A stretch of 64,000 nucleotides of DNA, from the NCBI GenBank assembly GCA_035946615.1, contig DASYZB010000125.1, positions 1 to 64,000 on the forward strand. Direction: 5' to 3'. The notes below the pieces were generated by a model. That model was not told where the DNA came from. It did not search any database and saw nothing but the letters and a program-made list of their open reading frames with translations. Position numbers and translations under genes: made by a program. This document shows, piece after piece, positions 1-44,301 of the stretch. This DNA is from Verrucomicrobiia bacterium. Lineage in GTDB: Bacteria; Verrucomicrobiota; Verrucomicrobiia; Limisphaerales; UBA8199. Numbering within the stretch: the first letter of the stretch is position 1; the number at the start of each line of letters is the position of its first letter.

Positions 1-303
1 AGGCGACCCTGTAAAAAGCCGGATGCAACTCCCAGGGGCCAGGTCACCGGAGAAGTTTTCGCCTGCCGGGACGCGTCCGCTGAGGTGGAGGCAGACAGGC
101 GTTTCCGGGCGGGCTAAGGCGACATCGGCCGCACGAACGGCGTAGCCATCCATTCCAGAATTGTCGAAAGGGGGCAAGTCGATGGGCGCGGTCAGCCGGT
201 CGAGTAGGACGCGCCGGTCGGCGGCGTTCAGCGCAACGGACTGGCGCTTGGGAGCAGGAATGGCCTCAAGAATTCGCACAACGGCTTCTTCTAATTTGAG
301 CAT
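1..303 (-). CDS. moeA: Molybdopterin molybdenumtransferase MoeA, N-terminal part (gene runs off the window)
   Basis: Reading from the ATG at 303 toward base 1 gives an open frame of about 100 codons that leaves the window. It starts MLKLEEAVVRILEAI and contains DNSGMDGYAVR at about residues 47-57, the signature of the MoeA N-terminal domain, followed by a GRVPAGE segment. MoeA inserts molybdate into molybdopterin, the last step of molybdenum cofactor synthesis in the cytoplasm. No other cofactor gene is visible here, and only the first quarter of the usual ~400 residues is present. The identification rests on the MDGYA motif and its position near the N-terminus. Confidence 0.88.
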   Translation of the reverse strand, partial: MLKLEEAVVRILEAIPAPKRQSVALNAADRRVLLDRLTAPIDLPPFDNSGMDGYAVRAADVALARPETPVCLHLSGRVPAGENFSGDLAPGSCIRLFTGSP

Positions 304-430
304 GACGCAAGGTGGATTACCGCAAACAGCTTGCAACCGCAAATGAGGAAGTTGCCGCGAGTTGCCGCGAAGGAACGCAGAGAACGCAAAGAAAGGTTCA
401 ATGCAAAAGGAGAAAAAGCCGGGCTCTGCG

Positions 431-1414
431 TTATTTGGTTGTGAAGCTGATGCTCGAAATTTCAGCGGGCTGGCCGGATACGCTTTGGAAGTTACGATAG
501 CTTCGGGAATTGATCCCTACCTGATAGTGGTGTCCCGACTCGAGTTTCACCGGCAGGGCGCAGGTGCGTTTGCCCCGCCACTGGACGCTCGCGCCTTGGG
601 GCGACGGCGGGTACTCCGGGCCGCCGCCGGTCCATGAGCATCCTTCCCCCATGTCCTGGTCGAAGGTCACTGTGATTTCGGCAAGGCCAGGATCGACATC
701 AGTGGCCCCGTCGGCTGGGATGGTGGCGACAACCTTGGGCGTCCCCGTTCCCGGGGCGCCCGAAGCGGCAGGCAGCCGGACCGTTTGCCGTTCGAAGGCA
801 TTGACGTATTGAGCGGTCTTGGCTTGGGTGTCCACCATGAAAAAGCGGCGCGGACCGCCTTTAGTATCCACGTCCACCGTCATGTCCTTTGGTTCCGGGA
901 TCATCACGTTAATGCCTGCATGATAGCTGGACCTCAATTTGCCCGCCGCTATGGCGCGCATTTGGGTAATGAGATTATTGGTGGCTGGCCCGAGCACCGT
1001 GTCTGGCGGAAATAATTGGTTGATTTGGCTCGGATGAAATCGAAGCCAGAGGTGCGCGATCTGCTCCGGCGAACCGACGCCCTGGCGCGTCAGGGCGCCG
1101 GGTTCGAGCGGGATGAGCATCGCGCAGACCGCGCCGTCGGCGCAGTGGCCGATACCGACGTTGGCCACGCCAGTTTCCACTTTCAACTGGCCGCCCACTT
1201 CAAGATGAAAGCGCGAGATTTGGTAGATATCGCCTGGAGTGAACTGCCAGGGGCGCGCCTGGTTTCCCTGCAGGATGCCGCCCGTCAGCGTGGTTGGATA
1301 GCGCTGGAGCAGGTCCGTGGCGTTTGCCGGCGCCGGCTTGGCCAGTCCGCCCGCGAGGCCCATGAGAGCGACTCCGAGCATGATTCGTGATGTCAGGTTT
1401 GTTTGAGTTTTCAT
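431..1414 (-). CDS. Secreted protein with C-terminal bacterial Ig-like domain, downstream of a BlaI-type repressor
   Basis: The product has 327 residues. A signal peptide covers residues 1-32 (hydrophobic MLGVALMGLAGGLA, then ANA). The middle (about 33-215) matches nothing I recognise and has one pair of close cysteines (GHCADGAVC). Residues ~228-327 start with VVATIPADGATDVDPGL and contain TVTFDQDM, typical of Ig-like domains of the SbsA/Big type. It begins 37 bases after the stop of the repressor gene on the same strand, so the two are probably one transcript. In BlaI loci this place normally holds a BlaR1-like membrane metalloprotease. No HExxH motif or multi-pass membrane region is visible here. 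Function unknown. Confidence 0.72.
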   Translation of the reverse strand: MKTQTNLTSRIMLGVALMGLAGGLAKPAPANATDLLQRYPTTLTGGILQGNQARPWQFTPGDIYQISRFHLEVGGQLKVETGVANVGIGHCADGAVCAMLIPLEPGALTRQGVGSPEQIAHLWLRFHPSQINQLFPPDTVLGPATNNLITQMRAIAAGKLRSSYHAGINVMIPEPKDMTVDVDTKGGPRRFFMVDTQAKTAQYVNAFERQTVRLPAASGAPGTGTPKVVATIPADGATDVDPGLAEITVTFDQDMGEGCSWTGGGPEYPPSPQGASVQWRGKRTCALPVKLESGHHYQVGINSRSYRNFQSVSGQPAEISSISFTTK

Positions 1415-1451
1415 TGGTTAGGTTGTTAGGTTTGGGTGGAGGTGGTTTTGG

Positions 1452-1826
1452 TCATTTCTCCTTTTCGCGCAGGATGCGGCGAAGTTCCTGAATGTCCTCT
1501 TTTGATAAATCAGCCCGCTTCACCAAGTGCATGAGGGCGGCGGAAGGGGCGCAGCCCAAAACACGGTCCCAAAACGACTCGCTCTCCTGGTGGACGCAGG
1601 CCTCCATCGAAACCAGCGGCCGATAAAGATAGCGCTTGCCGTCAAAATGCTGGGCCAGGGCCCTTTTATTGACGAGCCGCCTCAGCAAGGTGCGCACCGT
1701 CGCCAGGCTCCACTGTTTGCGCTCGTGCAATTCCTCGACAACTGCGCTCGCGGCAACAGGCGCCCGCTGCCACACGACGGCCATCACCTCCCACTCGGCA
1801 TTGGAAATGCGGATTGGTCTTTTCAT
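1452..1826 (-). CDS. BlaI/MecI/CopY-family winged-helix repressor
   Basis: The product has 124 residues, normal for the family. It begins MKRPIRISNAEWEVMAVVWQ, the conserved start of the BlaI/MecI winged-helix domain, followed by a recognition-helix segment (SLATVRTLLRRLVNKRAL) and a helical C-terminal dimerisation part. Family members are dimeric repressors of penicillinase or copper-efflux genes, often relieved by BlaR1 proteolysis. Two dyads with TGTTAC/GTAACA arms lie directly upstream, so autoregulation is likely. The ATG at 1826 is fixed by homology although no Shine-Dalgarno sequence precedes it. The only gene apparently co-transcribed is the secreted Ig-like protein. The signal sensed is unknown. 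Confidence 0.88.
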   Translation of the reverse strand: MKRPIRISNAEWEVMAVVWQRAPVAASAVVEELHERKQWSLATVRTLLRRLVNKRALAQHFDGKRYLYRPLVSMEACVHQESESFWDRVLGCAPSAALMHLVKRADLSKEDIQELRRILREKEK

Positions 1827-1828
1827 GC

Positions 1829-1848
1829 TATGTTACATACGTAACATA
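1829..1848. promoter_or_regulatory. Proximal operator dyad for the BlaI-type repressor
   Basis: A perfect dyad with 8-base arms TATGTTAC/GTAACATA around a 4-base centre lies 2 bases upstream of the repressor ATG. It falls in the predicted 5' untranslated region, where a ribosome-binding site would normally be. MecI/BlaI operators are short dyads of this general form (TACA/TGTA half-sites). Assignment as operator is inferred from position and symmetry. Confidence 0.7.
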
Positions 1849-1852
1849 GACC

Positions 1853-1881
1853 TTTATGTTACGCCTGTAACAGACTGTCAA
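1853..1881 (-). promoter_or_regulatory. Sigma-70-type promoter of the repressor/Ig-like operon
   Basis: On the minus strand a consensus -35 TTGACA (1881-1876) is followed by 17 bases and a -10 CATAAA (1858-1853). The predicted transcription start is near 1846, about 20 bases before the ATG. The spacer overlaps the distal operator and the initial transcript covers the proximal one. Confidence 0.6.
1855..1872. promoter_or_regulatory. Distal operator dyad for the BlaI-type repressor
   Basis: A second dyad repeats the same half-sites (TATGTTAC, 4-base centre, GTAACA). It starts 26 bases after the start of the first dyad and lies between the predicted -35 and -10 elements. Bound repressor there would block RNA polymerase. 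Confidence 0.66.
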
Positions 1882-43870: not shown

Positions 43871-44005
43871 GGGCGCACTGACCAGTCGCTCGCGGCGCAA
43901 CCGTCCCCGCTGCGAGTTCTGGCGGCTTCCTCTGCAAGTCTCAGCCACCGGGCGAGGACGCCTAACGCCACTAGTCTTTGTTCTCATCCCGAAGGAATGA
44001 TCGAG

Positions 44006-44158
44006 AATAGCCCAATGCTTCAGCATTGGGGAGACGTTTGGGAGGCGTGAAGTCCCGAAGGGACGGCTGAATGGAGAACGTAAGTGTCCAGGTTCAGCCG
44101 TCCCTCCGGGACTAAGGGCTCCAACGCCCCGTCCCCAACGCTGAAGCGTTGGGCTATT
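44006..44158. repeat. Large imperfect inverted repeat with nested hairpins
   Basis: Two 66-base arms (44006-44071 and 44093-44158) are imperfect reverse complements. Each contains an outer hairpin (CCCAATGC-TTCA-GCATTGGG; CCCAACGC-TGAA-GCGTTGGG) and an inner GGGACGGCTGAA segment. The 21-base centre is unpaired. It occupies most of the spacer between gcvT and the flavoprotein gene. The rest of that 492-base spacer holds only the gcvT promoter. Confidence 0.75.
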
Positions 44159-44301
44159 ATCGGATGCCCCTCCGGGACACGCACCCGTGCTCCGCTGTTG
44201 CTCCTCTGCACCCAAGCTCCCGGGATTGCTAATAGGCGTACTTATGATAAATATTAAATGACTGGAAAAATGAACTGTTGGTCCCGTGCACGACGCAAAC
44301 T

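Follow-up and report, generated by a model that had tools for sequence, protein, structure and literature searches.

Organization of the blaI locus

The window analysed here is a 64-kb stretch of DNA whose base 1 is also base 1 of contig C125 in a single MAG (genome G000; 161 contigs, 5.6 Mb). Near its start, we found the gene of a BlaI-type repressor under a promoter with two candidate operators, followed by the gene of a predicted secreted protein, P0001. Genomes, contigs and fetched stretches of the same order are denoted below by G, C and L numbers. The features of the locus are as follows:

1876..1881 (1881-1876), minus strand: -35 hexamer TTGACA, read from the sequence
1857-1872: candidate operator dyad 1, TGTTACGCCTGTAACA, a perfect TGTTAC-N4-GTAACA in the -35/-10 spacer
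1853..1858 (1858-1853), minus strand: -10-like hexamer CATAAA, read from the sequence, 17 bp from the -35 hexamer
1831-1846: candidate operator dyad 2, TGTTACATACGTAACA, a perfect TGTTAC-N4-GTAACA between the -10 hexamer and the blaI ATG
1452..1826, minus strand: blaI, encoding the 124-aa BlaI/MecI-family repressor P0002 (Pfam Penicillinase_R, E 2.5e-33)
1415..1456, minus strand: blaI/P0001 junction, with an ATG overlapping the blaI stop (ATGA) as the start of a 9-codon frame, MTKTTSTQT
431..1414, minus strand: gene of P0001, a 327-aa chimeric protein located where BlaR1 would be expected, with a signal-like stretch at its N-terminus
761..1339, minus strand: N-terminal domain (NTD) of P0001, residues 26-218, a domain common to S41-peptidase proteins
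434..748, minus strand: Ig-like Big_5 domain of P0001, residues 223-327, of a BlaR1-borne lineage
1-342, minus strand: moeA-like gene (MoeA_N), 88 bp past the P0001 gene and cut by the contig end

On the minus strand, the promoter is followed by blaI (1826-1452, with its ATG at 1826-1824), a 37-bp gap and the P0001 gene (1414-431). The ATG at the blaI stop could be the old, translationally coupled start of a blaR1 gene. The first-pass annotation had described P0001 as the only downstream gene; P0001 does follow blaI, although the moeA-like gene comes after it.

Promoter and operator dyads

The TTGACA-N17-CATAAA promoter and the two TGTTAC-N4-GTAACA dyads proposed in the first-pass annotation agree with the sequence, the dyads being 26 bases apart from start to start. 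Dyad 1 shares two bases with the -10 hexamer. CATAAA is a poor -10 and was absent from the output of a consensus promoter scan; the same TTGACA-N17-CATAAA arrangement also precedes the blaI gene of G137:C336. When up to two mismatches were allowed, the two dyads were the sole matches in the window, with 0.51 expected in shuffled sequence, and just two exact matches were present in the 5.6-Mb genome, both at this blaI promoter. Because the genome-wide search revealed no third exact dyad and the one-mismatch matches were at background level, a wider operator regulon is not claimed.

Across the order, blaI genes were preceded by similar upstream blocks, often with two dyads approximately 22-26 bp apart. 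The survey of 23 blaI upstream regions revealed 26 TAC-N4-GTA dyads, compared with approximately 0.6 expected from base shuffles; the starts of G004:C642, G064 and G123 were set by hand, off ATG, and their upstream positions may be shifted. The half-site of the window is conserved among the nearest relatives of its BlaI: G009 had two exact TGTTAC-N4-GTAACA dyads before blaI and G265 had one, while G004:C642 and G137:C217 each had a single match in 11 of 12 positions; in G156, the upstream region was cut off in the sequence. A pair of operators at one promoter is standard textbook knowledge for such repressors. It is described for both BlaI and CopY (PMC7253601). Twin dyads are ordinary for blaI promoters in this order, and at the window blaI the repressor's own promoter is covered by dyads with the TAC-N4-GTA core.

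The window BlaI is apparently intact

P0002 matched Pfam Penicillinase_R over residues 7-120 and MecI (1okr) over 118 residues (phmmer, E 1.7e-20), in agreement with its membership in the BlaI/MecI family. Its score against the CopY_TcrY equivalog was 107 bits, under the cut-off of 121.95, and the CXC metal motif was absent when the sequence was read. The five nearest BlaI relatives showed 76-65% identity to the window BlaI, which sits on an end branch of 0.062 in the BlaI tree, at a weakly supported node (84/66). The pN values of 0.15-0.22 were low compared with pS values of 0.58-0.74, and the dN/dS ratio is rough because dS is saturated. By these values, the window BlaI is slowly evolving and not decaying.

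We also compared the cleavage segment, taking the scissile bond of MecI to be N101-F102. The aligned segment was H100-L101 in the window BlaI, and the same HL pair was present in four of the five nearest relatives, with QL in G265. The segment is thus kept in the window BlaI, which says nothing for cleavage by the BlaR1 encoded on contig C108 of the same genome.

The window blaI lacks the M56 partner found beside its relatives

No M56 (BlaR1) frame was found near the window blaI, and the locus does not contain the BlaI-BlaR1 gene pair. The absence of BlaR1 noted in the first-pass annotation was therefore borne out, and it stands against the five nearest BlaI relatives, all of which have an M56 gene directly downstream of blaI. 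Related blaI loci from 30 of the 99 genomes with a match, one best-matching locus per genome, were searched for M56 within 1.5 kb. An M56 gene was next door in 28 of these 30 loci, the two exceptions being the window and G033. A separately fetched blaI gene, G004:C570, was also without M56 and had a long branch (0.88), and in G137, M56 genes lay beside all 12 blaI genes. These pairings were counted on the fetched loci (the 30 blaI loci and the 12 of G137); an M56 match was listed in at least 184 of the 320 genomes of the order.

Of the four blaI genes in the window genome, three (on C108, C58 and C105) each have an M56 gene beside them, and these three are all the M56 genes of the genome; the window blaI is the sole unpaired one. 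A genome-wide search for dyads and for BlaR1 found no BlaR1 elsewhere that shares the TGTTAC operator; on this point the first-pass reading, to which a linked BlaR1 with the same operator would have been fatal, stands. G033 has a single blaI (L172:2622-5268, G033:C36), behind which lie the genes of a secreted DUF3300 protein and of one more protein predicted to be secreted. G033 is absent from the M56 matches listed for the order (1e-6), so that BlaI can apparently persist without any BlaR1 in this order.

The sole low-E-value M56 match in the window was rejected as a remnant. It proved to be the 3' end of blaI read in another frame, and it arose because the ORF start of L043, picked by the ORF caller, falls inside blaI. 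The blaR1 gene beside the nearest blaI relative (L108:672-4419, G137:C217) is split over two frames by a frameshift or a sequencing error. The BlaR1 proteins of the window BlaI clade had CarboxypepD_reg-like tails in four cases and a laminin-G tail in the fifth; the Ig domain of the P0001 family was seen on none of the five.

P0001 combines an S41-linked domain with an Ig domain

The N-terminal signal-like stretch of P0001 was read by eye, and secretion, which the first-pass annotation had stated outright, is a prediction from that reading. The sole Pfam match of P0001 was Big_5 (PF13205) at residues 225-326, with 29.1 bits against a gathering cut-off of 23.6. A search of NCBIfam returned nothing for this protein, and P0001 matched neither the S41 catalytic domain nor the M56 domain with its HEXXH motif.

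The NTD had 12 matches in 10 of the 320 genomes of the order, 11 of which were used for the trees after a G128 fragment with a stop had been dropped. In 11 genes, the NTD was followed by an S41 peptidase in seven cases, by an Ig domain in three (the window, G214 and G239) and by a contig end in one. In G004:C642, the order is BlaI, BlaR1 and NTD-S41, with the NTD-S41 gene approximately 420 bp behind blaR1; this S41 protein gene may have a promoter of its own. P0001 is thus a chimera of an S41-linked NTD and a BlaR1-lineage Ig domain. A second copy of the exact blaI-P0001 operon was not found in the 320 genomes of the order.

The structure model of the NTD was weak, with a mean pLDDT of 54 that rose to approximately 80 at residues 61-140. 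Its best Z-score was 4.6 (OspA), LolA-like folds reached 4.2-4.3, and Foldseek gave no match with E < 0.001. MucB/RseB, which occupied the top Foldseek rows, was rejected as the NTD fold, since the E-value was 0.066, the TM-score was 0.1 and the model is too weak. Two BlaI-like dyads 23 bp apart precede the NTD-S41 gene of G137:C397 (L070:2389-2427). GATTAC dyads were present at none of the 12 blaI promoters of G137, so this candidate for a second BlaI-controlled NTD gene was set aside and stays a hint.

The Ig domain of P0001 belongs to a BlaR1-borne lineage

An alignment of 101 residues gave 66% identity between the Ig domain of P0001 and the first Ig repeat of the C108 BlaR1. In the tree, the P0001 domain grouped at 97/92 with seven Ig repeats from the same bacterial family, six of them carried by BlaR1 proteins and the seventh by a secreted protein encoded next to a BlaR1 in G012. 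The next Ig group was also BlaR1-borne, except for the secreted protein of L045 and the collapsed gene of L049. At the search threshold, the whole window genome contained three Big_5 domains, namely that of P0001 and two on the C108 BlaR1.

The blaI operators of C108, GATTATAGATGTAATC and GATTGCAGATGTAATC, are GATTAC-like and differ from the TGTTAC dyads of the window, and the C108 BlaI shows 47% identity to the window BlaI. The C108 BlaR1 keeps HELGH, and its protease domain is 41-47% identical to the BlaR1 partners of the window BlaI clade, compared with 34-36% and 26-34% for the two other M56 proteins of the genome.

In G004:C587 (L049:2162-2746), where 1.55 kb is missing by comparison with the paralogous operon C349, the deletion has joined BlaI residues 1-60, the DNA-binding part, in frame with the final Ig repeat of BlaR1. 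At G004:C563, a gene of the NTD-S41 kind shares four bases at its end with a secreted-Ig gene. This overlap illustrates how an NTD-Ig fusion could start, though its Ig belongs to another subgroup.

Comparison with known systems

The standard example of repressor removal by a membrane protease is BlaI-BlaR1. The BlaI/MecI-BlaR1/MecR1 systems of Staphylococcus aureus and Bacillus licheniformis share with the window the full-length repressor family and the twin dyads over the blaI promoter; in contrast, the window contains no BlaR1, β-lactamase or PBP target, and its output would be a predicted secreted NTD-Ig protein. The statement in the first-pass annotation that known BlaI systems pair with BlaR1 was too strong, since CopY repressors do not. 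The CopY/TcrY copper repressors likewise belong to the BlaI family, lack BlaR1 and use two operators, whereas the window has neither a CXC metal motif in its repressor nor a copper exporter gene next door.

In G004:C642 (MAG DBS2-1.bin101, JAJYHY010000253.1), BlaI is 71% identical to that of the window, the promoter layout is the same and an NTD protein is encoded nearby. However, BlaR1 is present there, with a CarboxypepD_reg and thioredoxin-like tail, and the NTD bears S41 instead of Ig. In the blaI-blaR1(Ig) operons of C108, G006, G011, G012 and G004:C349, an Ig of the P0001 lineage faces the outside of the membrane, but there the Ig forms the BlaR1 tail, the operators are GATTAC-like and the BlaI proteins belong to another clade. 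The NTD-Ig proteins of G214 and G239 have the same domain order as P0001, although their Ig belongs to another subgroup (a 99/97 split) and the neighbouring sensor is an Ig-tailed Ser/Thr kinase; the stretches fetched from these two genomes had no BlaI or M56 match. Among papers available without subscription, a literature search gave none that dealt with the function of BlaR1 in this order, with BlaR1 proteins bearing an Ig tail or with an orphan blaI of this type.

Proposed history and regulation of the locus

The anatomy of the locus and the loss of BlaR1 are, in our judgement, very probably correct. The locus resembles a blaI-blaR1-peptidase operon from which both peptidase domains have been removed. 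In the ancestor, blaI was probably followed by blaR1 and then by an NTD-S41 peptidase gene, as still found in G004:C642. The window lineage would then have lost the M56 gene as well as the S41 domain, and P0001 would have gained an Ig of the BlaR1 lineage or kept one from a neighbouring gene. BlaI and its two operators would be left, together with a predicted secreted protein composed of the NTD and a BlaR1-type Ig.

From the dyads and from what is known of the family, we infer that BlaI dimers on both dyads would shut the single promoter driving blaI and P0001. P0001 would be the output, presumably acting in the cell envelope, and its Ig may share a target with the Ig tail of the C108 BlaR1. 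Derepression, if it occurs, would act in trans, and most likely by cleavage of the window BlaI by the C108 BlaR1, which is speculative. Taken as a whole, this explanation (a BlaR1-less blaI operon with P0001 as output and any derepression in trans) is the best we can offer and is held tentatively, at a little under an even chance. The leading readings of induction are a BlaR1 acting in trans and the lack of a dedicated inducer. Induction by C108 is possible but doubtful when taken by itself. In its favour, the C108 protease domain is, among the three of the genome, the closest to the partners of this BlaI clade, has HELGH and bears an Ig of the P0001 lineage; the differing C108 operators and the 47% identity of the two BlaI proteins count against it. 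In staphylococci, cleavage of a foreign repressor is selective. Direct cleavage of BlaI by BlaR1 has been reported for S. aureus (PMC9834060).

Without a dedicated inducer, BlaI would hold its own transcription and that of P0001 low and steady, and turnover and growth would set expression. The lack of a BlaR1 sharing the TGTTAC operator and the persistence of the single blaI of G033 are consistent with such an autorepressor. On the other hand, the perfection of both operators and the slow evolution of the repressor suggest a continuing need for regulation, and a pure noise limiter would need no cleavage segment, yet one is retained; we consider this reading conceivable, though somewhat unlikely. 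Inactivation of BlaI by an anti-repressor, a small ligand or a cytoplasmic protease, independently of BlaR1, has precedents in MecR2, which inactivates MecI without BlaR1 (PMC3406092), and in copper acting on CopY (PMC7253601). However, P0002 has no CXC motif and scores under the CopY_TcrY cut-off, and no candidate anti-repressor lies beside it in the window, which renders this route improbable.

The first-pass annotation had also proposed that the secreted protein either replaces BlaR1 or evolved from its C-terminus. The former idea fits in part, as P0001 lies in the place of BlaR1 and carries an Ig of a BlaR1-borne lineage. The latter, in which an internal deletion fused the leftover C-terminus of a local BlaR1, is very improbable: a comparable collapse exists in G004:C587, with 1.55 kb missing relative to C349, but the first 218 residues of P0001, two thirds of the protein, form an S41-linked domain with a signal-like stretch that is no part of BlaR1, and the five BlaR1 proteins of the window clade show no such Ig. 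Wrong joining of blaI and P0001 in the assembly, suggested by the 161 contigs of the MAG and by the position of the locus at a contig end, is the least credible reading, as the junction is more than 1.4 kb away from the contig end, the two reading frames are unbroken and 37 bp apart, and a homologous NTD gene occupies the same neighbourhood as a related BlaI in G004.

A BlaI with retained operators and a slow rate of evolution, deprived of its protease amid three other BlaR1 proteins, offers a clean natural test of BlaR1 action on non-partner repressors or of BlaI working alone.

Ig domains on sensors and secreted proteins

The NTD-Ig genes of G214 and G239 adjoin genes of Ser/Thr kinases that end in an Ig domain, and small secreted-Ig genes lie nearby. 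Ig-tailed kinases were also found in G021 and G033 (Pfam) and in G017 (by reading), and a hydrophobic stretch precedes the Ig in all five. In L069, L074, L050, L052 and L053, Ig-tailed Ser/Thr kinases adjoin genes for apparently secreted Ig-domain proteins. The kinase-linked and BlaR1-linked Ig domains formed separate groups in the tree (99/97), so NTD-Ig fusions probably arose at least twice.

These arrangements suggest that Ig-tailed sensors may cooperate with secreted Ig proteins. The Pfam scans revealed no β-lactam sensor domain on these BlaR1 and kinase sensors, and the Ig that recurs on BlaR1, on kinases and on secreted neighbours in these Verrucomicrobia relatives therefore provides a handle on what the sensors detect. 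We also considered a broader idea, which we regard as rather unlikely: the Ig would be a shared outside "address" pairing secreted proteins with unrelated membrane sensors (BlaR1 proteases in one lineage and Ser/Thr kinases in another), NTD-Ig would have arisen two or more times, its Ig subgroup matching on each occasion that of a sensor in the same genome, and P0001 would be a secreted partner or competitor of the C108 BlaR1. If this were true, P0001 would wire two BlaI circuits together through the envelope.

Other observations

A dispersed repeat with the core CATCGGCAGATTAAAGATGTAGTTCATGTTAGGGACTCCTCA, often located after a C/T-rich hairpin, was present in 14 copies in the 13 stretches examined (L147-L159). 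These copies lie on contigs C12, C49, C81, C82, C87, C113, C116, C117, C121, C62, C46, C23 and C150 of G000, and no copy was present in the 64-kb window. Additionally, the window contains two Acido-Lenti-1 RNA matches in opposite orientation, approximately 100 bp apart, at 43985-44030 (minus strand) and 44134-44179 (plus strand).
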